A stretch of DNA of 28,157 nt, from positions 1-28,157 of the IMG/VR virus record IMGVR_UViG_3300025133_000482. The stretch is one strand, 5' to 3'. This DNA comes from a virus. How positions within the stretch are numbered: position 1 is the first letter of the stretch; every line of letters begins with the position of its first letter. This document shows, in pieces, positions 4,836-28,157 of the stretch. The notes beneath the pieces were generated by a model. That model did no database searches, was not told where the DNA came from, and worked only from the letters and a program-made list of their open reading frames with translations. The translations under genes were made by a program, and so were the position numbers.

Positions 4836-5095
4836 AACAAACTAAACTAGTGTCTCTTATTGAGACTTTCATGACCGTAGGGATAGGTTTTTGTGTATCC
4901 CTTGTAGCTTGGCCTTTCGTAGGAGCATTGTATGACATACCGTATGCTTACAGCAGTCATCTTGGGATCACTGTTATATTTACTGTACTTGGACTTACAA
5001 GGGTCTATATTATCCGTAGATTCTTTGAAGGTAGGATTTACGAACGGGCGTACTTTCTAGCCGATAAGTTCAATAACTGGAGGTCTACTTCTTAA
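4832..5095 (+). CDS. DUF7220-like two-helix membrane protein
   Basis: The 87-residue product begins MKQTKLVSLIETFMTVGIGF and has two hydrophobic segments (about 13-32 and 43-60), separated by a short loop, then a basic end with RRFFE. The opening SLIET, the FTVLGLTRVY block and the Arg-rich exit are the pattern of a small phage membrane protein family (DUF7220) that I recognise only by pattern. Its role is unknown. It is the last plus-strand gene, and its stop lies 11 bases inside the end of the oppositely oriented holin gene. GCGGAGGAAG precedes the ATG. Confidence 0.75.
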   Translation: MKQTKLVSLIETFMTVGIGFCVSLVAWPFVGALYDIPYAYSSHLGITVIFTVLGLTRVYIIRRFFEGRIYERAYFLADKFNNWRSTS

Positions 5096-5486
5096 TAATA
5101 CCAGCAATCTTTTCCCCACTCCTGCCAACTACGTACCCCCCAAGTCCTAGTTGCAGGAGCATCCATGCTTCATCCCGCAATGGGGTGGCTAAGAACCCTA
5201 GAGAGTCCCCTACCGCTAGGGTTAAAAACGTAAGCATAGTAATAGGCCGCCAAGATGCCACAATCCAGTGGTCACTCTTGGCCTCGGCTGCTATAATATC
5301 CTGTTGGCCCTTGAGCGCCTGAAGCTCATAATCGAACACCACCTGCATACATGCTGCCTGTACCTCTAGCAGTCTCTCCTTATGCTGGTTCTTCTCATCT
5401 CTGGAGGTGTGCACCTCGTCAATAAGCTCAGCGGCTGGCTTGAATATGCTAGCTATGAGATCAAGCACTTTGAACTGTCCAATCAT
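5085..5486 (-). CDS. Holin of the 3-TM, GTA-type family
   Basis: The 133-residue product has a polar coiled N-terminal half, then the typical H-W-I-V-A-S-W-R-P-I turn (73-82), followed by hydrophobic helices (about 83-101 and 106-120) and a basic tail ending KIAGIIKK. This arrangement matches the 3-TM holin family first described in gene transfer agents. Such proteins open the inner membrane at lysis so that the lytic enzyme can act. The N-terminal 1-25 stretch may form the third membrane or amphipathic segment. The gene is the last of the late minus-strand operon and follows a 44-codon gene. GGAG sits about seven bases before its ATG. Confidence 0.8.
   Translation of the reverse strand: MIGQFKVLDLIASIFKPAAELIDEVHTSRDEKNQHKERLLEVQAACMQVVFDYELQALKGQQDIIAAEAKSDHWIVASWRPITMLTFLTLAVGDSLGFLATPLRDEAWMLLQLGLGGYVVGRSGEKIAGIIKK
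5119..5159. repeat. 12-bp inverted repeat near the convergent gene ends
   Basis: CTCCTG(C)CAACTA at 5119-5131 pairs with TAGTTGCAGGAG at 5148-5159: twelve pairs with one bulged base and a 16-base loop. It lies inside the holin coding region, about 25-65 bases past the plus-strand stop. No U-tract follows on either strand. It could end or slow transcription from the left arm, or be coincidental within coding sequence (LQLGLGGYVVGR). Confidence 0.35.
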
Positions 5487-5633: not shown

Positions 5634-6085
5634 TTCCCTAGTGCTTCCCTAGTCTCTTTAGCATAGTCACCTATAGCCTTACGACTGACTTCCGAAGCTG
5701 ATGCCTGAGCTACTAACCCCATAATAATATCATCCCGCTTATGAGCTAATTCATCAAAGTGTTCAATCTTTCGCTGTAGGTTATGTATCTCTGCTGTACC
5801 GTTGTCAATCTCGCTGTTGATATACTGAGCACCTCCGTACATAAGAGAGACAATAACAGCAGCTAGTCCCAGAAAAGTCTTACCTACCAGACTTAATACA
5901 TCCTTGGTATCCCATCCAGACGACTGATCATACTCCTTAATCCCCTCAACTGCGTTAGTCAAGCGATCAATACGGTCAATAGTAGCACGTTGGTTAGTCT
6001 CGACTATCCCTCGTAGGCCAGCAAGGTCTTGCTCTACATGGTTTAATCGTGTATCGTAGTGTATTGTGTTATCACCTAAACTCAT
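5630..6085 (-). CDS. Coiled-coil, single-TM membrane protein of the lysis region (possible inner spanin analogue)
   Basis: The 151-residue product has an N-terminal coiled coil (about 11-50), one transmembrane helix (about 66-89, VGKTFLGLAAVIVSLMYGG), and a C-terminal helical region (91-145) beginning NSEIDNGTAEIHNLQRKIE. The topology, with coils on both sides of a membrane helix, resembles hemolysin XhlA-like or spanin-like lysis proteins, but normal inner spanins have the membrane helix at the N terminus. It is coupled by 4-base overlaps to the genes on both sides. Lysis function is inferred from neighbours (3-TM holin downstream). A virion-associated membrane protein is an alternative. Confidence 0.6.
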   Translation of the reverse strand: MSLGDNTIHYDTRLNHVEQDLAGLRGIVETNQRATIDRIDRLTNAVEGIKEYDQSSGWDTKDVLSLVGKTFLGLAAVIVSLMYGGAQYINSEIDNGTAEIHNLQRKIEHFDELAHKRDDIIMGLVAQASASEVSRKAIGDYAKETREALGK

Positions 6086-6348
6086 TTCCTTTTACCCGGT
6101 GGCCTAGACTTCCTACCTCCCGCCGCTTTTCCTGCCCTATTCCCTACTTTGCCTCCACGACTCCGATTGGTGGAACGATCCTCTGCCTTGAAACCCCCTC
6201 CTTTCTGCCGTGATGCGTCCCGTTTGTCCCCCTTTTTAAGGCCGAGGGCTTTCCGAGCTTTGTTGTCTGCTGCTCGTTTCTTTTTAGCCTTTGCTGTGGC
6301 GTTGTACTTCTTCTGGTACGCCGCCTTAGCTTCTTTAGTAGTAGCCAT
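6082..6348 (-). CDS. Small very basic protein resembling degenerate phage HNH proteins
   Basis: The 88-residue product begins MATTKEAKAAYQKKYNATAK and is about one third Lys/Arg. The start, the KALGLKKGDKRD segment and the RSTNRSRGGK block recall small phage proteins annotated as HNH endonucleases, in which the middle carries DxxHxDGNPxNN. Here the corresponding stretch (DASRQKGGGFKAEDRS) lacks both His and the Asn pair, so nuclease activity is unlikely. A nucleic-acid or genome-packaging binding role is plausible from charge. The start overlaps the stop of the large structural gene upstream by one base, so it is made late with virion proteins. Confidence 0.6.
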   Translation of the reverse strand: MATTKEAKAAYQKKYNATAKAKKKRAADNKARKALGLKKGDKRDASRQKGGGFKAEDRSTNRSRGGKVGNRAGKAAGGRKSRPPGKRK

Positions 6349-18287: not shown

Positions 18288-19190
18288 TTACTCAGTCCAG
18301 AGAGTGAAACCAGACTCAGGACGGTAGATTGAAGTACCGTACAGAGTATCAGCGGTGTACAGAGTTGCCAAGTACTCCTGCTGGTACTGAGTCTGAGAAC
18401 GAACACCCTTCTGGTTTACACAGAGGAAGGTGTCAGAGTGGAACAACACGTTGCCACGTGCGCCTGACTCAGTGGGGACGTTGGTAGAAACGTAGATGTC
18501 GATGCCGTACAGCTCACCGATCTTACCGTTTACAACACCACGACCATTCACGAAGTCAGAAGATACGTAACGATCAATGCCCATAATCTTGTTACGTACC
18601 TGAGGTGCGATAACAAACTTACGTCCATCCATGGGGGTATCCGCGTCATCCATTTTCTGAATGAGGTTACGGAAACCTGCATCGGTGAAGTCAGAGCCTA
18701 CGCCAGTAACGTAAGCAGACAGAACACCAGCAGTGTCAGTGAAAGACTGATCAGTTTGGTTGTCTGCACCAGTACCGTTACCGATAGACTTGGTGAGATC
18801 GAACAGATCACTGTCCTTCTGGAGTGCCAGAGCGTAACCAGCATCAGAAGTGTAGAACTGACGCAGAGACGCAAGCGCCTGAGTAGCAGTAATATCTTCA
18901 ATGTGGTTAGAGTACTCAAAGTGCTTGTCGATTGCAACTACCAACTCGGTGTGAGTGTTAGCTTGCAGAGTGACTTGCGCTTCAGCAGTCTTTGCATTGG
19001 CTGAACCACGAACAGGCTTAGGAATGTGGATGGTATCACCCTTCTTTCCTTCCATGCTCAGGTTACGTACAAGCGGAGCCATTACGAGGGATTTCTCGTA
19101 AGCCGCGATTACTTCATCACTCCAAAGTTCGGGGATGAATACTGCTGCCGTAGTGTTAGTTACACTAGGGACGTTATTAAATGCTGCCAT
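18288..19190 (-). CDS. Major capsid protein
   Basis: The 300-residue product starts MAAFNNVPSVTNTTAAVFIPELWSDEV, then EKSLVMAPLVRNLSMEGKKGDTIHIPKP. This is the typical N-terminal arm and E-loop beginning of HK97-fold coat proteins of podovirus type. Helical spine (DLFDLTKSIGNG, FRNLIQKMDDADTPMDGRKFVIAPQVRNKIM) and P-domain-like strands (GELYGIDIYVSTNVP, GNVLFHSDTFLCV) follow. It forms the icosahedral shell. Ribosome site AAGGA lies ten bases before the ATG. The scaffold gene precedes and a stable hairpin follows, as expected for a highly expressed coat gene. Confidence 0.92.
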   Translation of the reverse strand: MAAFNNVPSVTNTTAAVFIPELWSDEVIAAYEKSLVMAPLVRNLSMEGKKGDTIHIPKPVRGSANAKTAEAQVTLQANTHTELVVAIDKHFEYSNHIEDITATQALASLRQFYTSDAGYALALQKDSDLFDLTKSIGNGTGADNQTDQSFTDTAGVLSAYVTGVGSDFTDAGFRNLIQKMDDADTPMDGRKFVIAPQVRNKIMGIDRYVSSDFVNGRGVVNGKIGELYGIDIYVSTNVPTESGARGNVLFHSDTFLCVNQKGVRSQTQYQQEYLATLYTADTLYGTSIYRPESGFTLWTE

Positions 19191-20810: not shown

Positions 20811-21119
20811 TTACACCAATTCATCGTCATCTGTGCCAGCACCAATGTGCCCTTGGGCTTCAGCGTGAGCCAAGATAGCATCATGTAAATCTCTGAGGGT
20901 TTTTCGTGTGTTCGCACCAACATCACTGAAACGTAGCCGTTCGGTTATATAGTTCACAGGCTCTCCTGCATCATCACGGTTAGCGATCTGGTAAGTAAGC
21001 CTGACATTCCTGTTGATAATAGACCCATCTTGCCTGCGGTCTATGACTAAGCCAAAGCGTTCGACAGTATCTGTTACAATAGACCTTGTTACAACTGGGG
21101 TTGTTCTAGTTCTCGCCAT
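20811..21119 (-). CDS. Unknown protein, 102 aa, in fibre-to-scaffold interval
   Basis: Starts MARTRTTPVVTRSIVTDTVERFGLVID, then beta-like strands (RNVRLTYQI), a helix (TRKTLRDLHDAILAHAEAQG) and an acidic C terminus (GTDDDELV). No family is recognised. The gene overlaps the last base of the fibre gene before it and is on the same transcript. Given its place, it may be a small virion or fibre-assembly protein. There is no hydrophobic segment or Cys. Confidence 0.6.
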   Translation of the reverse strand: MARTRTTPVVTRSIVTDTVERFGLVIDRRQDGSIINRNVRLTYQIANRDDAGEPVNYITERLRFSDVGANTRKTLRDLHDAILAHAEAQGHIGAGTDDDELV

Positions 21120-22414
21120 TACTCTACCTTCCTTATGATTAACTCACACTCATCCTTCCAAGTGTCAGTTGTATATGTACCGTCTGAATCGTCTACCTCG
21201 ACATCCATCTCAATATACTGACCAGCAGTTAGCTCTCTTTCGGTATCCAGATGAACACTGAAGTCACCATAATTACTACCTCTGTGATATCCCCTTGCGG
21301 CTCCTGCATGTGTATTAGAGCCGTCTATCCTGACCCTCATAACCAGAGTAGTTCGTCCAGACCCTGAAGGGTTCAGACCTATATGACCTGTGATTTGATA
21401 CCTGCCAGCTTCAACAACAGTACATCGGCTAGGGTTAGTTGATGTGCTGTGTGTATAGTAGTCAGTATCTATACGGTCAGGAGTCTTATCCCACTTTACT
21501 TGATTGTTAGTCCCGTTTACCCCTCCTAAGTTCTGGTTGGCGACTTGCCTGAGGTGAGCTACGGGCCGCTTAAAACCATTGTCAAGATAACCATCTTGAG
21601 TGAGCCTACCTACCTCTACATTAGCATCGACCGTCCACTTAAAGTCACCTGATATGGCTTTGTGTGTCATTGACTCAGCTATATAACCTGCGCCTGATTC
21701 AGTATCTGCATCCTCGTCATATGCAATGTGTAGAGAGTTACCGAAAGCACCGTATGTGAAACCTTGGGTAAGAGACTGTCCTATGAAAGGTGCCTCACTA
21801 CCACCAGCTTCCAACTCACCAGTAATAGTTCTGCCTTCTATCTTCAGGTTAGCAGTGCCATCACTTAGTGTTAGAGTTGTGGTGTAATCTATCTGATCAG
21901 TATCTATCCCATCGGCTGTTGTGGTAGCGACTTTTACTCCATCATAGTATAGATCAACACTCCCCCCTGCTGTGGCCCCAATAGCATTATCACCGTCTAC
22001 CGATGTAAGGAATGAAGAACCAGCTTGTATATACAGAGGGACATAAGAGCTTGAGGTATTTATGGATTGGATCATCCCGTTATTACCCGAGTTGCCTAAC
22101 CGTAGGCCGCCACCAGTCTGTCCTGCTTCTATAGTCCCATTTATCGCTAGTGCATAGGTTCCGTGTATAGACGTACCTATTGCCATCTTACCTGTAACAT
22201 CTAGGTTACCAGTAAGCGAGTCTGTGGTATTTAATAGGTAGTCTGTATGGGTATGTGATGTAGGGGAGTAGGATAAAGATATCCCTCCCGCTGTAGACCC
22301 ATCACCAACAAACAACTCATGGTCATCTGTTGTCCACAATAACTCACCTGTCTCAGGTGTAACTCCAGAGCGAGATGCTTCCAATCCTGTCTTGATATAG
22401 ACTTTGTTCGGCAT
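21119..22414 (-). CDS. Tail fibre / receptor-binding-type protein, 431 aa
   Basis: Residues 20-45 (ETGELLWTTDDHELFVGDGS) match the small N-terminal domain of phage fibres and tropism determinants (GELxWxTDxxxLFVGDGST). A shaft with repeats follows (NLDVTGKMAIGTSIHG, DNAIGATAGGSVDLYYDG). The C-terminal about 145 residues form a distinct beta domain (RYQITGHIGLNPSGSGRTTLVMRVRIDG) resembling C1q/TNF-like jelly rolls used as trimeric receptor-binding heads. It is the third of three adjacent fibre genes overlapping by one base each. The head identity is inferred from the pattern. Confidence 0.72.
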   Translation of the reverse strand: MPNKVYIKTGLEASRSGVTPETGELLWTTDDHELFVGDGSTAGGISLSYSPTSHTHTDYLLNTTDSLTGNLDVTGKMAIGTSIHGTYALAINGTIEAGQTGGGLRLGNSGNNGMIQSINTSSSYVPLYIQAGSSFLTSVDGDNAIGATAGGSVDLYYDGVKVATTTADGIDTDQIDYTTTLTLSDGTANLKIEGRTITGELEAGGSEAPFIGQSLTQGFTYGAFGNSLHIAYDEDADTESGAGYIAESMTHKAISGDFKWTVDANVEVGRLTQDGYLDNGFKRPVAHLRQVANQNLGGVNGTNNQVKWDKTPDRIDTDYYTHSTSTNPSRCTVVEAGRYQITGHIGLNPSGSGRTTLVMRVRIDGSNTHAGAARGYHRGSNYGDFSVHLDTERELTAGQYIEMDVEVDDSDGTYTTDTWKDECELIIRKVE

Positions 22415-23592
22415 TAAAAGGTTCCACAGTCGATCACGAGGTCATCTAATACGGTTGTCATCTTAAGAGGGGTTACTGTTTTGGTATCATTAGTACCTGT
22501 GTTAGTCTCCCCTTGGGTAGCAATCTGGATGTAGCCAGCAGTTGACTCACTAGCAGCCCCTATGTTACTCTGTACTACTGTCCAGTCAGACAGAGAGGCT
22601 GCATCACTGGAGTCTACATCAGAGATCAGCACATCACCTATCTCTACTGCTTCAGTGAAGAACGTACCTGCTGCTGTAACAGTATACATATCACCAATAG
22701 AGATTGAAGGTGTTCCTGTGTCCAACGCAGGGGTGTTTGTGGATGCGTTATACCCACCCTTGTGTGTCAGACCACCTGTAACAGCATTGTCCACATACGC
22801 CTTTACAGACTGCTGTGTGGGTACATGGGTAGCTGAGTCAGACCCCATAGCATCTTCATCTAAGATCCAGTTCCATGAAGAGGAGCCAGCATCTGTGGTA
22901 AGAACTGTAGCTGCATCATTTGCCTCCCACCCACTGTTGTTGTTGAACTCGCTCAGCTTAATCTCGCTGACAGCCTTACGACTCTCAGTGCCAGCGTTGT
23001 TCAAGATAACTTCAGTAGTACCGCTGACATCACCTGTCATGTCGGTGAGAGTGGTGAAGTCCATGTCAATAGTCTGGATATGGTCACCAGATACAGTGTT
23101 CAGATCGCCAGTCAGACCAATACCAGCAGTGATATCAACTCGTGAGATATCTCCACTACCTAACCCGAACGGTAAGTCTGATACCAGACCTTTAACGACA
23201 TTACCACTAGTGGCATCGTTATAGATTATAGTGTCACTGGTTGCAATAGCAGAACCTTCTTGGTTCGTAGCAACATCAACAAAGTTATCAGCACCCGTGT
23301 AATCCAGAGAGACAGTTACATCCCCTGTACTGCCCCCATCTGCACCAGAGACACCTGTACCAGTCGTGATGGTTTGGTTATCCTGTGCGGAAGAGTTAGG
23401 CTGTGCTGCTACACCATCTGTACCTGTTGTTACGGTAGTGGTGATCTTGGTTACGGTTGCTCCAGCAGTTCCGATAAACAGTTCACCCTCGCCATTAGGT
23501 GATCCATCTTCTGAATATGCCAACTCACCTTGATCGAGAGAAGATGGTGTGTTTGTAGATGTTGAGCGCGGAATGCGTACCTGTTGGGCCAT
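22414..23592 (-). CDS. Tail fibre-type protein, 392 aa
   Basis: It opens VRIPRSTSTNTPSSLDQGELAY (about 5-26), the same kind of GELAYS...GELFIG entry domain as the next fibre gene, then Thr/Gly-rich repeats (TITTGTGVSGADGGSTGDVTVSL), the common fibre helix THVPTQQSVKAYVDNAV (255-271) and near the end the motif TAGYIQIATQGETNTGTND...TVTP (351-376). That last motif is shared with the 325-residue protein at 17209-18186. The final residues are short with one Cys, so a separate head may be supplied by the neighbouring gene product. A host-binding fibre shaft is the likely role. Confidence 0.75.
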   Translation of the reverse strand: MAQQVRIPRSTSTNTPSSLDQGELAYSEDGSPNGEGELFIGTAGATVTKITTTVTTGTDGVAAQPNSSAQDNQTITTGTGVSGADGGSTGDVTVSLDYTGADNFVDVATNQEGSAIATSDTIIYNDATSGNVVKGLVSDLPFGLGSGDISRVDITAGIGLTGDLNTVSGDHIQTIDMDFTTLTDMTGDVSGTTEVILNNAGTESRKAVSEIKLSEFNNNSGWEANDAATVLTTDAGSSSWNWILDEDAMGSDSATHVPTQQSVKAYVDNAVTGGLTHKGGYNASTNTPALDTGTPSISIGDMYTVTAAGTFFTEAVEIGDVLISDVDSSDAASLSDWTVVQSNIGAASESTAGYIQIATQGETNTGTNDTKTVTPLKMTTVLDDLVIDCGTF

Positions 23593-24164
23593 TAGAAGTA
23601 TCCTCCATCTATGTTCATTGTGTCGATTTCTGTTTTAGTATATGCATCTGCGATAGTATAGCCAGAGATAGTCGTTGGTATGCTTGTAAGACTCGCAAAC
23701 GAATGGGAATGAGAAGAGATAGGTGCTGCTGCAATGTCCGCAGGTGAGAAAGAGCGCAACTCTGTCTCTGTCCCTGCTGCCAGTTCTGCAGGCGTGACTT
23801 GTTCCGGTAATGTGCTGCCGCTACCACCGTGGGATATGTAGGTGTCTCCACCTTTTCCTAGACTGGGAAGCTCTACTGAGTCTTCGTCTCCGTTTGAGAA
23901 CTGGAAGATGAGGGAGTCGTCTGCTCCGAGTTCAACTCCTGTGACGGAGACTCCATCTTTACCATCCATTCCCGGTGAGCCTTCAGGGCCGTCATGGCCA
24001 TCTCGGCCAACTCCCATCTCACCACGGTCACCCTTCTCTCCTTTGATGCTTGTGCCGTCTTTACCTGCTGGGCCACGCTCACCCTTCGGGCCTACTTGCT
24101 TCGTTACCGAGGCAATCTGGTCTTGCAGCCTCTTAAGGAGAGCTAGGAGGGTAAGATCGTTCAC
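23592..24164 (-). CDS. Collagen-like fibre protein, 190 aa
   Basis: A short leucine-rich helix (1-22, NDLTLLALLKRLQDQIASV) precedes Gly-X-Y repeats from about residue 25 to 71 (GPKGERGPAGKDGT...GEKGDRGEMG). The later half has a small beta region and the phrase PADIAAAPISSHSHSFASL, a usual fibre linker before the tip. Collagen-like triplets form a rigid trimeric rod. The helix could start trimerisation. Translation begins at GTG 24164 in a GTGA overlap with the portal stop. It probably forms one segment of the same fibre as the two following products. Confidence 0.8.
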   Translation of the reverse strand: MNDLTLLALLKRLQDQIASVTKQVGPKGERGPAGKDGTSIKGEKGDRGEMGVGRDGHDGPEGSPGMDGKDGVSVTGVELGADDSLIFQFSNGDEDSVELPSLGKGGDTYISHGGSGSTLPEQVTPAELAAGTETELRSFSPADIAAAPISSHSHSFASLTSIPTTISGYTIADAYTKTEIDTMNIDGGYF

Positions 24165-26134
24165 TTAGGCTGACCACTTAATTGACGAATCAGCTCTGCC
24201 TCCGCAGCTTCTTTCTTGTGGGTATCTTTATCTTTCTCTTGCTGTTCTAGCTGACGGTATCGGATGTCGAGGTCTGCCAAGCGCATCTTCTGCTCAAAGT
24301 CCTTGTCCATTTCACCATCGTTGTTCATGTCACTGTACTTCATGACAGCCTCTTTAGGCATCAGTTCAGCTTCAACTACGTTCTTCTGGGATCTGGATTG
24401 TGCTTCTCCAGCCTGCGCTTGCAGTAACTGCACTTGACTCTGAAGGACACCCATCTCTAGCTGTTCCTTCTGTTTCTGGCGCTCTGTTGCCTCTGGATCT
24501 GGTTGAGGCGGAGTCTCTAGGATCTCAATGATCTCTTCACGGTTAGTCACGTTCAAGTGCTCAATGATAGCCTTCATCACTGCTGAGTGAGCAGGACTTT
24601 CAGGGGGTAGGCTCTGGATAAGCTGGGTAAGCTGGCCTACCTCGTACTCCCGAGCTACTACGCCCAGTGAAGAGATCACAGTGAACTTGAAGTCCTGTAC
24701 TGGGTACTCCTCTGGATCGAACTGCATGTACCGATAAGCAGCCTTCTTGACCATCGGAATAACAAAGTTCTCTTGGAAGTTCACCAGTGTACGCTTCTGT
24801 CGCTTGATGATTGCGCCAAGTGACATAGACATGCCTGCTGCTGTACCTTCTCCGTTGATGCTACCTGCTAGGCCAGCAGAATCCACTGCACCTGTAGCTG
24901 ACTGTACCATCTCCTGCAAGGCTCCAGCCTGTGCAAAGGTGATCTGGTCTACCTGACCGAAGTGGAAAGGCTGAAGGATCTCATTAGGCGGCCCAGCAGT
25001 CATGAACATCTTACCGGGGCGTACCTCAAAGGTAGCACCACGAGGAACACGAGTACTGTCTACACCCATCATAGGATGAGTGGTAAGGCCGAGGGCATCA
25101 ATACGTGCTCGCATTTCAGCATCCAGTGCCTTCTGTGACATATACCCTTTCTCACAGACACCACGGCCCCAAAACCTACCGGGGACTACGTCCCAAGGGA
25201 AAGCCACTAAAGGACGATCCTTCATCATGTACGGGTTAGCAATAGCCTTCAGTAGTTGACCTTCGTTGGCCATGACTACGATAGCTTCTACGTACATGCT
25301 ATCTTCTATCTCATCCTCGTCTACACCAGCGGCTACTAGAGCTTCGCGTGGTACTAGGCCGTAGTACTTAGTAAGGCGTACACGGTCTGTAGCAGACACG
25401 GTAAGGTCACGGTCTGCCTCAATCTCTTCGTCAGCGGCAGCTACGCCTACTGTTACAGTTGAGTCGTATACACCAGATTCTTGCAGCATCTCTACAGTGT
25501 GCAGGGATACGAACTCCTCAACGATACAGCCTTGAGCATCTTCGATGCATGTAGCAGAAGGGTCGATGAGGAACTGGTGGGGCTGTATAGGGTTCAGCTT
25601 GACAATAGGGCGGGTCTGTGCCATCACCCCTGTCTGCTGTAAGGCACCGTCCATGATGTCCTGAGTTGCTGGCTTACGGACTACCTGTTCTTCGATAACA
25701 ACTTCAGCTACTCCTGTGCCGTACACAGCAGCATTAATAAGGCACTCTCCTACTGAGGAGCGTACCCTACCGATCTGGAAGTCCCTTGAGAGGTTCTCAC
25801 GAAGCAAGATCATATCCTTGTTTTCTTCGTCAGCCTTGTCATCCTCTACATCAAAGAGCAACCCTGTCTTACCAAAGGAGGCTTCTTCGATCTCAGCTAC
25901 GTTGGACTCTACAGCCTGCTGGGTAGCAGGAGCAATCAGCTTAGAACGCTCTGAGTCACGAGTCTTGTCTTCCTCTGCCCACTGGCAACGCCATAAACGG
26001 TAGTACTCTTGGAAGATGTCATCGTAGTTGGATTCATAGAAATCACGCCACTCATTAGAGCGATCCTGCACCCAGTCAACAATATCTTGATCTGTACCTG
26101 AGTGTTCTATATCTTCATCAAAGCCTGAACTCAT
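24161..26134 (-). CDS. Portal protein
   Basis: The 657-residue product begins with an acidic segment, then RDFYESNYDDIFQEYYRLW and TRDSERSKLIAPATQQAVES, the usual start of T7/P22-type portals, followed by the clip/stem region (NPYMMKDRPLVAFPWDVVPGRFWGRG) and a conserved ALDAEMRARIDALG helix. The C-terminal 100 residues are coiled coil with many Gln/Glu. A calcium-loop-like sequence D602-M-N-N-D-G-E-M-D610 lies there. The protein forms the 12-subunit ring through which DNA is packed and ejected. It follows the terminase by about 430 bases, with a small accessory interval between. Confidence 0.9.
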   Translation of the reverse strand: MSSGFDEDIEHSGTDQDIVDWVQDRSNEWRDFYESNYDDIFQEYYRLWRCQWAEEDKTRDSERSKLIAPATQQAVESNVAEIEEASFGKTGLLFDVEDDKADEENKDMILLRENLSRDFQIGRVRSSVGECLINAAVYGTGVAEVVIEEQVVRKPATQDIMDGALQQTGVMAQTRPIVKLNPIQPHQFLIDPSATCIEDAQGCIVEEFVSLHTVEMLQESGVYDSTVTVGVAAADEEIEADRDLTVSATDRVRLTKYYGLVPREALVAAGVDEDEIEDSMYVEAIVVMANEGQLLKAIANPYMMKDRPLVAFPWDVVPGRFWGRGVCEKGYMSQKALDAEMRARIDALGLTTHPMMGVDSTRVPRGATFEVRPGKMFMTAGPPNEILQPFHFGQVDQITFAQAGALQEMVQSATGAVDSAGLAGSINGEGTAAGMSMSLGAIIKRQKRTLVNFQENFVIPMVKKAAYRYMQFDPEEYPVQDFKFTVISSLGVVAREYEVGQLTQLIQSLPPESPAHSAVMKAIIEHLNVTNREEIIEILETPPQPDPEATERQKQKEQLEMGVLQSQVQLLQAQAGEAQSRSQKNVVEAELMPKEAVMKYSDMNNDGEMDKDFEQKMRLADLDIRYRQLEQQEKDKDTHKKEAAEAELIRQLSGQPK

Positions 26135-26196
26135 AGTTTTTTCTGCATCTGTATAGTTCTATCTTGAATCTCATCATTTACGCTTTTATACGCCAT
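26131..26196 (-). CDS. 21-aa microprotein directly before portal, strong ribosome site
   Basis: ATG (complement of 26194-26196) is preceded by a perfect AAGGAG (26203-26208) with six-base spacing, and the frame ends in an ATGA overlap with the portal start. The peptide begins MAYKSVNDEIQDRTIQMQ and is a polar helix. It may be a real product or a leader whose job is to couple translation into the portal gene, which has no strong site of its own. The ribosome site and coupling are seen directly; the role is inferred. Confidence 0.55.
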   Translation of the reverse strand: MAYKSVNDEIQDRTIQMQKKL

Positions 26197-26202
26197 TTGA
26201 TT

Positions 26203-26208
26203 CTCCTT
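26203..26208 (-). promoter_or_regulatory. Strong Shine-Dalgarno (AAGGAG) ahead of 21-aa ORF and portal
   Basis: This is the only good ribosome site between the secreted-protein gene and the portal. It is spaced for the 21-codon ORF, not for the portal ATG about 70 bases on, so portal translation may depend on re-initiation after that ORF. Confidence 0.55.
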
Positions 26209-26217
26209 AGCTACTCG

Positions 26218-26502
26218 TTACGGGCAGTAGTAGTAACCACCTAATGACAGTCCATTCTCACAATCCTCTGTCTGGTATCGAGGTGTAGACGGTGTAGATG
26301 GTGTTTCTACTTCTGCTTCTGCTTCTATCTCTTTAACTCCACCTTGTACTCGCTTGATCTGCTCTACAGGCCAGCTCTTCGGTACAGCTACAATCTTCTT
26401 ACCTGATGGGATCACTAACCTTTCATTATCTGAGTTGTAGCACTCTTGTGACCATGCACTAAGAGACAGCGAACAGAATATCATCAAACCGATTACTTTC
26501 AT
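26218..26502 (-). CDS. Secreted (signal-peptide) small protein between terminase and portal, 94 aa
   Basis: Residues 1-18 form a clear signal peptide (MKVIGLMIFCSLSLSAWS) with an A-x-S type cut before Gln19. The mature part has three Cys (21, 81, 93), a mixed region (VIPSGKKIVAVPKSWPVEQ), a charged Glu/Ala tract (KEIEAEAEVE) and a TPSTPSTP linker, ending in aromatic GGYYYCP. It lacks a lipobox, so it is probably periplasmic or surface-exposed. The DNA of the linker is a short tandem repeat (GAAGCA units and an ACACC(A/G)TCT unit), which can change length by slippage. No family is recognised. A host-envelope role such as exclusion of other phages is a guess. AAGGAA precedes the ATG. Confidence 0.68.
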   Translation of the reverse strand: MKVIGLMIFCSLSLSAWSQECYNSDNERLVIPSGKKIVAVPKSWPVEQIKRVQGGVKEIEAEAEVETPSTPSTPRYQTEDCENGLSLGGYYYCP

Positions 26503-26532
26503 TACAATTCCTTATTTGTTACGTTAGATTAA

Positions 26533-26568
26533 CTATTTGTCTTCTTTACAACCACTACATACCTTCAT
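26533..26568 (-). pseudogene. 11-codon Cys-knuckle ORF, possible remnant of an HNH/zinc gene
   Basis: Directly after the terminase stop (TGAATG) a tiny frame reads MKVCSGCKEDK and stops. The C-x-x-C-K-E-x-K opening is the usual N terminus of phage HNH or endonuclease VII-type proteins, so this may be what is left of a deleted nuclease gene. It may also be a short peptide or chance. Confidence 0.3.
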
Positions 26569-27828
26569 TCAATAACCGCTTACAGCGTCCAGCGGCTCCC
26601 AGTCTGACTCAAAATCTTCTGCACTTGAGTACGGCAGTATAACCATCTGGTCGATGTAAGCTAATGCGTCTAGCAAATCATCATGAACTAACGGAGAAGG
26701 GAAGTTGCTAGCCTCGTCTACGAAGTTTACATTCCACTTCTCATCCTGCTTGAGGGAGATACTGCCTCTCTCAAATCTACCACCTAAGGCCCAGAGAATA
26801 CGGTCTGTCTTCTTCTGGTTACCATGCGATAGCAGTTGTATCCTGAACACCCTAGAGGTTCTACGCATCAAGTCCTGAAGGGGCTGCATAACGGCTTGCT
26901 GTGCTATGCCCTTCTCGATGCCTACGCCCATAGGTCTGTACTTCTCTACAGCGGCGAAGATACGCTCTGCTGTTTCGTCTAGAGTCCACCTACCGAAGTC
27001 GATTTGCTCTACCTGCCAATCGCCTATGTCGTTAACGTACACACAAGCTATGGCTGAATTGTCTCGCTTGGCAGTCTTGCTGCCACGTTTCTCTTCAAAT
27101 CCTGCAAGGTCAATTGCTATGTAATGATCACCGGGTATAGACGTATCTAGTTCGTCATAGAACTTGAAGTCGTCTACCTCAAAATGCTCACTCCCTTGTG
27201 CATCGAAGGATGCCATGTATTCTTGCTGGAAAGCCCACCGAGGCAGGGTAGCCTTCGCATGGTCAATTTCACCCTTATCCAACAAGGGGTTGTCATAGCT
27301 CGTGTAGTGCCATGCTTCCCACTGGGGATCACCTCCTATTTTAGCGTCTATGTACTTGTCGTAGAAATGGTTACGACCTTCTGGTGTACCTATAAAGATG
27401 CATGTCCCCTTCATGTCTGAAAGAGCAGGCCGAAGGATGGCATCGAATACATCAGCCTTCATGAATGCGAACTCGTCCAGAACAAGGTGCTTCAAGGAAA
27501 CCCCCCGAAGAGTGTCAGGGCGATCAGCGCCCTTAAGGTATATAGTCTGACCATTTGTTAGAGTTAGTGTCAGATCGTTCTTATTATGTGTGTCTATCAA
27601 TTCCCCGCAAATTTCGTACAGTTTATCCCACATGATATCTCGGGCCATACCTTGCGTTGGTGCGACATAGAAGACCTTGCCTCTCTTGTCTGATAGCGCC
27701 GACAGTACTAAAGATACTGCGGCTAGATGGCTCTTGCCAGTACGCCTACCCGCTGCAACTACTTTGAAGCGGAGATCCGTATCCATGACTTCTAATTGCC
27801 ATGGCAACATACTGAGGTCTAACTTCAA
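26569..27828 (-). CDS. Terminase large subunit (ATPase/nuclease)
   Basis: The 419-residue motor packs and cuts DNA. Visible motifs: Walker A around 25-33 (A-A-G-R-R-T-G-K-S), Walker B with catalytic acid at 114-119 (H-L-V-L-D-E), a coupling motif FIGTPEG at 145-151, and the nuclease acids D240 (AIDLAG), E305 (GIEKG) and D383/D384 with D387 (HDDLLDALAY). Start is taken as TTG 27828 in a TTGA overlap with the upstream gene's stop, with AGGCGG at six bases. ATG 27810 (MLPWQLEV) is an alternative six codons later, but has no good ribosome site. Confidence 0.93.
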   Translation of the reverse strand: MKLDLSMLPWQLEVMDTDLRFKVVAAGRRTGKSHLAAVSLVLSALSDKRGKVFYVAPTQGMARDIMWDKLYEICGELIDTHNKNDLTLTLTNGQTIYLKGADRPDTLRGVSLKHLVLDEFAFMKADVFDAILRPALSDMKGTCIFIGTPEGRNHFYDKYIDAKIGGDPQWEAWHYTSYDNPLLDKGEIDHAKATLPRWAFQQEYMASFDAQGSEHFEVDDFKFYDELDTSIPGDHYIAIDLAGFEEKRGSKTAKRDNSAIACVYVNDIGDWQVEQIDFGRWTLDETAERIFAAVEKYRPMGVGIEKGIAQQAVMQPLQDLMRRTSRVFRIQLLSHGNQKKTDRILWALGGRFERGSISLKQDEKWNVNFVDEASNFPSPLVHDDLLDALAYIDQMVILPYSSAEDFESDWEPLDAVSGY

Positions 27829-28157
27829 TTAACGCCGCCTACCAATCGCTTGTAGTCTACCATCTCTCTATCCCACTGTTCGCCTTTCTTAGTGCGTACT
27901 TTCTGGTCATTCTTATGACCTGCCCAGTGATTATCTAACCAGAAGTCTTTATCGGTCATCTCGCCTCTAGCGAGTTCACCTACTTCATCACCTTTAGTAC
28001 GGGCTACCCAGTCTGCTAGTAGGATAGCTCTTTGTCCATCCTCACTGATCTTGGAGAAGTCTGGTATCTTCTTGCTTATTTGCTCTCTATCCGATTTGCT
28101 GAGGTCTACGCCACCGTAGTTCTTCTCAAACCACTTCAGGCGGTTACGGGCTGTAGC
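27825..28157 (-). CDS. Gene in small-terminase position, 5' end cut by window
   Basis: The frame is open from the right edge for 110 residues to TGA 27825-27827. It contains RNRLKWFEKNYGGVDLSKSDRE, a middle helix ISEDGQRAILLADWVARTKGDE, and a basic end with DNHWAGHKNDQKVRTKKGEQW. No named family is recognised from what remains. Immediate upstream placement and overlap with the large terminase make a small terminase or packaging factor likely, but a separate unknown protein is possible. Its start lies beyond the window. Confidence 0.55.
   Translation of the reverse strand, partial: ATARNRLKWFEKNYGGVDLSKSDREQISKKIPDFSKISEDGQRAILLADWVARTKGDEVGELARGEMTDKDFWLDNHWAGHKNDQKVRTKKGEQWDREMVDYKRLVGGVN

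Follow-up and report, generated by a model that had tools for sequence, protein, structure and literature searches.

The question raised by this locus is why the genes for the terminase large subunit (TerL) and the portal protein of a phage are parted by an interval that encodes a probably exported protein of 94 amino acids and an open reading frame (ORF) of only twenty-one codons. The window, the whole stretch of DNA analysed here, is a 28,157-base IMG/VR virus record representing a fragment of an uncultured phage. On its minus strand the order, 5' to 3', is a gene end (27825-28157), TerL, the interval and the portal gene (Table 1), followed by collagen- and fibre-type genes, which occupy 21119-24164, between the portal and head protein genes. 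The major head protein is encoded at 18288-19190, while a holin family match is found at 5085-5486 and a protein of 88 aa that is very rich in lysine (phrog_6437, of unknown function) at 6082-6348. The portal protein distantly resembles, at 20-28 % identity, its counterparts in HMO-2011-type phages and their relations, and no near isolate could be distinguished in the phage collection on the basis of portal, TerL or head protein, with all matches below 60 % identity. The truncated gene product is related to those of L060:1009-1638 (phmmer E 2.9e-42) and L039:1506-2126 (4.8e-28), where L-numbers denote fetched relative loci and coordinates are given within each locus. It appears hydrolase-like by eye only; its own best PHROG match (E 0.0096) is of unknown function, and the two related proteins have no PHROG match at 0.01. 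Comparison ruled it out as the counterpart of L002:3045-3617. No Rfam match up to E 0.5 occurs in 25900-26900. The answer proposed here, to which we assign a probability of about 0.5, is that the interval is a nuclease-scarred slot which now carries a late exported envelope protein, together with a coupling leader for the portal gene.

Table 1. Features of the TerL-portal region of the window and relatives of the 94-aa protein
Feature	Position	Strand	Length	Basis or remark
Gene immediately preceding TerL (C-terminal part)	27825..28157	-		cut by window end
TerL	26569..27828	-		phrog_2 (3.7e-51); Terminase_6N (5.7e-14)
Start of an endonuclease VII-like gene, probable remnant (MKVCSGCKEDK*)	26533..26568	-	11 codons + stop	directly at TerL stop
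Probably exported protein	26218..26502	-	94 aa	coding score, rule-based signal, relatives
Signal-peptide-like start	26449..26502	-		rule-based; by eye
6-nt and 9-nt repeats coding for the Glu-Ala/TPST linker	26282..26325	-		DNA sequence
C-terminal motif C..(N/D).L(S/T)LG....C (codons 81-93)	26224..26262	-		shared with relatives
Ribosome site (AAGGAG) of the 21-codon ORF	26203..26208	-		-9.1 kcal/mol
Probable coupling leader for portal	26131..26196	-	21 codons	ATGA overlap with portal
Portal protein	24161..26134	-		phrog_1216 (5e-45); SU10_portal (2.5e-26)
Relative of the 94-aa protein	L086:4353-4586		77 aa	signal-like start (by eye and rule)
Relative of the 94-aa protein	L002:9893-10123		76 aa	signal-like start (by eye and rule)
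Relative of the 94-aa protein	L005:9423-9734		103 aa	signal-like start by eye; absent from rule listing

In this uncultured phage group, the stretch between TerL and portal is a slot for optional genes. Using the best 80 relatives for each of four queries (window TerL, window portal and two more), both genes could be placed in 277 of 309 sources, which yielded 205 distinct junctions, the window included, after identical junction sequences were merged. Measured from the TerL stop to the projected portal start, 125 junctions span 60 nt or less, fifty-one span 61-160 nt and twenty-nine are longer. By cargo, 125 are essentially empty, while fifty encode a single-TM peptide, ten carry a nuclease-like start (nine relatives and the window), four a glutaredoxin-like gene and sixteen other cargo; these shares reflect the choice of queries, among them one that has the TM peptide itself, and are therefore not natural frequencies. 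The variable cargo among relatives that the initial annotation proposed for this interval is thus borne out. Among the seven nearest relatives (TerL ≥75 %, portal ≥70 %), six (L002, L003, L005, L021, L083 and L086) have an empty junction and the seventh, L090, encodes a different, lysine-rich 97-aa ORF. The TM peptides of one clade comprise 29-45 aa, with a single hydrophobic segment and the core NTYGIYAISAVVFFTLGYS (L069:5844-5936, L037:3891-4025 and others), and the two examined have no PHROG match. A 554-aa cargo protein (L148:2706-4370) matches phrog_3170, of unknown function, and glutaredoxin-like genes flank TerL on opposite sides in different relatives (L202:1359-1592, L099:1956-2225). 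Classification of the interval as a moron, with its own promoter and terminator, was not supported by a consensus scan, where the two promoter-like sites both fall within the 94-aa gene (shuffle mean 1.6) and the one terminator-like site lies within the portal gene. No published description of this slot or of the 94-aa protein was found in the literature searched. If the proposed reading is right, a large group of uncultured phages has, within its packaging operon, a reusable slot for exchanging exported, membrane and nuclease genes.

The interval in the window opens with what is probably a decayed endonuclease VII-like gene. An N-terminal zinc-ribbon start of the endonuclease VII type (MK.C..CK.EK) is present at the junction, while a complete homing-endonuclease catalytic domain is absent from the window. 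In nine relatives a gene at or near the same place begins with a similar pattern, and MK.C..C does not occur in any of 200,000 random 36-mers of the composition of the interval. At the DNA level the remnant resembles L077 (78 % over 41 nt), a match which at E 0.43 is weak by itself. Endonuclease VII family support is available for six of the nine relatives, through PF02945 in L013, L031 and L133 and phrog_1035 in L077, L250 and L032. The family scans covered eight of the nine, all but L252; the junction gene of L134 has sub-threshold HNH matches only, and for that of L041 Pfam gives no nuclease match. As the same N-terminal part occurs in Lar-like proteins (phrog_5558 matches in relatives), nuclease identity of the eleven-codon start is likely rather than certain. 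The initial annotation had overlooked this start, as well as the relatives of the 94-aa protein that occur elsewhere, and its reading as a whole is supported in part.

What it did recognise, namely a protein between TerL and portal with a hydrophobic, signal-like start and three further cysteines, is confirmed. Cys21, Cys81 and Cys93 follow the hydrophobic start, with a fourth, Cys10, located within the putative signal. The coding score of the 94-aa frame exceeds those of all 110 off-frame 94-codon chunks from twelve window genes, although by the standards of this phage's genes it is low, with one of 55 in-frame chunks scoring lower; its ribosome site pairs with the anti-Shine-Dalgarno at -6.2 kcal/mol. 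It is the only ATG ORF of at least 60 aa in the window to pass the rule-based signal test, which is also passed by 44/3,721 ORFs of shuffled windows and 62/2,007 plus-strand ORFs of relatives. Export is probable, by a rule which 1-3 % of background ORFs also pass. By eye, a signal cut is proposed after residue 18, between AWS and QE; the rule stops already at residue 13. The Glu-Ala/TPST linker, built from a 6-nt and then a 9-nt repeat, is missing in the shorter relatives L086 and L002. Predicted fold models are poor (pLDDT 55.9 and 46.6). With respect to spanins, neither a lipobox nor a later hydrophobic stretch is seen by eye.

Three relatives of the 94-aa protein probably exist in the nearest lineages (L086, L002 and L005), at moderate homology. 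They were traced via signal-bearing small ORFs in the fetched loci together with a common C-terminus. With the window protein they have in common the C-terminal Cys motif, a signal-like beginning and, within the first half, (V/I)P.G. The lack of a signal peptide in all relatives, which the initial annotation had named as evidence against it, is not observed, since all three begin with a signal-like stretch by eye. Single BLASTP comparisons with the window protein give 4e-6 for L086 and 3e-4 for L005. By Smith-Waterman score among 6,546 ORFs, L086, L002 and L005 rank 1, 2 and 9, with ranks 3-7 taken up by loci fetched for the pattern GGYYYCP and hence biased; of 5,000 shuffles zero, zero and two, respectively, reach these scores. 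The C-terminal motif occurs in four of 12,696 ORFs against one of 761,760 shuffled ends, a count that is partly circular since these four proteins were the source of the motif; it is unseen in the other near relatives, whose loci are partial. Using the L086 protein as phmmer query, the window protein is third in kind (E 0.12, not significant alone), while L086 against L005 gives E 0.021. With the window protein as query among 16,731 ORFs, phmmer returned no relative, only the protein itself and a JeffCo protein (0.058), which was rejected as the match position lies within a large unrelated protein. The 94-aa protein has no match in PHROG (up to E 1), Pfam (above cutoff) or plasmids (E up to 1), and no relative among seven phage collection records, all at E 3 or worse, the first of which was dismissed as an unrelated larger tail-region gene. 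Likewise, no relative is found among 18 pattern matches in viral contigs and 146 in genome contigs, nor any short exported protein among 14 matches to GGYYYCP as a DNA pattern. A query built from the four-member alignment recovered only the L086 and L002 contigs among 62 pattern matches, and the best PDB profile match of the family (E 0.088) is not meaningful.

The four genes occupy different sites. The L086 copy is found 43 nt after the portal gene and that of L002 between two long fibre-like genes, both preceding the same fibre-like gene, which begins MSTISQFTPAKLKAWIELYS, while the L005 copy lies further down, past the head protein region; fibre-like here is a reading by eye. A gene beginning MSTISQFTPAKLKAWIELYS is also present in L021, with no exported gene before it. 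It thus appears that the gene for the exported protein changes place within the late module.

The initial annotation considered a secreted product among packaging genes to be an oddity, a view that does not hold for these phages: the slot between a small-terminase-like gene and TerL contains endolysin-type or signal-bearing genes in relatives, so that an exported product near TerL is ordinary here. The endolysin families include GH108 (L021), Peptidase_M15_3 (L202 and L069), Phage_lysozyme (L083), phrog_90 (L019) and phrog_894 (L202). L003, L004, L085 and L086 encode a 60-aa signal-bearing protein with two Cys (L086:887-1069, L003:879-1061) in place of the endolysin; neither Pfam nor PHROG gives a match for that of L086. 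A second exported family, with fifteen aligned members (L215:360-755, L069:4267-4590, L199:1683-2096 and twelve more), belongs to a different clade, where it is found directly before TerL, and is characterised by a signal, YxDGSTYT and WCxxYVPW, with a calcium-loop-like DxNxDG end in several. That it might be one family with the 94-aa protein is at most tentative: profile comparison gives a probability of 59 and E 9e-5, but the 38 columns matched take in the signal region. Its PDB profile search produced no meaningful match. A further small signal-bearing, Cys-rich family (L124:284-526, L285:3245-3496, L307:1282-1506) and proteins of ~250 aa with a lipobox-like start (L173:1210-1965, L196:766-1533 and others; no family match for L173) also precede TerL.

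At the other end of the interval, the 21-codon ORF with an excellent ribosome site (-9.1 kcal/mol with the anti-Shine-Dalgarno), leading via ATGA into portal, is as initially described, and the suggestion that it tunes portal translation is plausible. The portal start is itself almost without a ribosome site (+0.2 kcal/mol), the weakest among twenty-two window genes, with the next at -2.8. It is the weakest of 204 junctions where the starts of relatives are picked favouring strong sites, and the second weakest of 202 where they are picked blind; in the blind ranking L229 is weaker, the start picked there lying 36 nt away from the projection, while L193, L194 and L231 (-0.9, blind) own a -6.0 start 54 nt upstream when strong sites are favoured. 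The portal site averages -4.65 kcal/mol in 124 empty, -6.09 in fifty-one small and -5.07 in twenty-nine long junctions. In the empty junctions inspected it usually lies within the last TerL codons; the TerL end of most relatives inspected contains AGGA, which is absent from that of the window. At three further long junctions where the portal site is weak (L066, L254 and L099), a TAATG overlap is present at portal. When the 83 nt before portal were shuffled 2,000 times, 213 gave an ATG ORF of at least ten codons ending in the portal ATGA, and none of these had a ribosome site of -9 or stronger; the ORF alone is thus not rare, while the ORF with its site is. As the portal is almost siteless and the ORF site very strong, the preferred interpretation of the 21-codon ORF is a coupling leader, from which ribosomes probably restart on portal. 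The 4-nt stop/start overlap is that of termination-reinitiation pairs, an established mechanism, and translation was strictly coupled in 13 of 14 overlapping gene pairs tested (PMC6728339). The pair described here differs from known ones in that the upstream partner has twenty-one codons and appears to replace a lost ribosome site. A peptide with its own function, with portal started by another route, would account for an in-frame codon score far above that of the other frames of the ORF; it is an unlikely explanation given the near-absence of a portal site, and no relative of the peptide was found in the fetched loci, so that it was also rejected as a conserved peptide. If the coupling reading is right, a very short leader keeps an essential downstream gene expressed after an insertion.

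These observations can be brought together in a model where an endonuclease VII-like gene formerly occupied the slot in the lineage of the window and left eleven codons behind, and where the present occupant is the gene for a short exported protein, a member of a small family found at changing places in the late (structural) module of the nearest relatives. The protein would be made late, along with the structural proteins, exported, and probably disulphide-bonded outside the cytoplasm. There it may act at the host envelope. Insertion of cargo would have parted portal from the ribosome site at the TerL end, which is kept in relatives with an empty site, and the 21-codon ORF may make good this loss, with ribosomes loading at its strong site, stopping at ATGA and restarting on portal.

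The readings of this interval differ mainly in what the 94-aa protein does. It would be a late envelope protein, more likely to exclude competitor phages than to control lysis. Exclusion, or shielding of progeny, is favoured by the late position, probable export and fibre-like linkage, with two of the three relatives directly preceding the same fibre-like gene, and the evidence for exclusion is indirect. A role in lysis control, where the exported protein regulates or assists a holin or cell-wall enzyme (as an inhibitor, a helper or in an antiholin-like way) in the lysis neighbourhood around TerL, is a tentative alternative which draws on the lysis genes nearby, namely the endolysin-type genes before TerL in L021, L202, L069, L083 and L019 and the holin family match of the window, and on the other small signal-bearing Cys proteins in the slot before TerL. 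However, none of the relatives of the protein is encoded next to an endolysin, their genes being found after portal or amid fibre-like ones, and no family match to a known lysis regulator is found. The linkage to fibre genes in L086 and L002 could also indicate a host-recognition accessory carried with these genes, bound for example to released particles outside the cell. This is improbable, as virions assemble in the cytoplasm, where an exported protein would miss them, and the window gene is not beside a fibre gene.

A more sceptical account holds that one of the two ORFs, the 94-aa frame or the 21-codon one, lacks a function and that the interval is the scar of a lost nuclease gene. It is in keeping with the broken gene at the start of the interval, the ease with which shuffling yields an ORF ending in the portal ATGA and the absence of the interval from six of the seven nearest relatives; the coding score above all off-frame chunks, the relatives with the same motif and the ribosome sites of both ORFs make it unlikely. 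Returning to an exported envelope protein in a nuclease-scarred slot, a bolder form of this reading, offered as speculation, is that the four members seen belong to a new family of exported exclusion proteins in uncultured marine-type phages. Its genes would roam the late module, frequently next to those for fibres, and its products would stop competitors at the envelope, at a receptor or an incoming cell-wall enzyme, with nuclease-marked junctions aiding its movement and the 21-codon leader re-creating the portal site. Even without this extension, the proposed reading, if right, would provide a family of exported proteins to examine for phage exclusion.

Individual elements of the proposed arrangement have counterparts in known systems. 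Among Skunavirus, all 89 genomes encode a HrdP-type HNH nuclease at the TerL-portal junction, with a presumed role in packaging, and other HNH genes often occur as truncated copies (56/268; PMC12724721). The location is exactly that of the present junction, where, in contrast, nuclease-like starts occur in ten of 205 and the window retains eleven codons only. F-CphI, an endonuclease VII-type homing nuclease of cyanophage S-PM2, has a C-terminal endonuclease VII motif, as do L013, L031 and L133 by their Pfam matches (PMC6083498), whereas no catalytic part is kept in the window. The SH3 gene by the lysis module of T1-like phages, which an occasional HNH nuclease may have spread (PMC13164509), is similarly an accessory gene near envelope genes, but in another genome place and with no sequence match. 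The Llp of T5 and Cor of T1 are likewise small phage envelope proteins, in this case outer membrane lipoproteins that block the receptor (PMC9586334, PMC13164509); the window protein differs by eye in having no lipobox Cys, with S-Q-E preceding Cys21. A further comparison is with the T4 Spackle protein, a short exported, periplasmic superinfection-exclusion protein of 75 aa when mature, with one disulphide, which is an early gene product, forms a helical bundle and inhibits the tail lysozyme (PMC7677548). The window protein, which with the signal cut proposed by eye would be 76 aa when mature with three Cys, and whose possible export and disulphide bonding are read from the rule-based signal and the Cys count, differs in its late module location, poor fold models and lack of a sequence match, with no Spackle family match in PHROG up to E 1 or in Pfam above cutoff in a general rather than Spackle-specific scan. 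The capacity of a short, exported, disulphide-bonded protein such as Spackle to exclude phages provides a precedent for such a function (PMC7677548).
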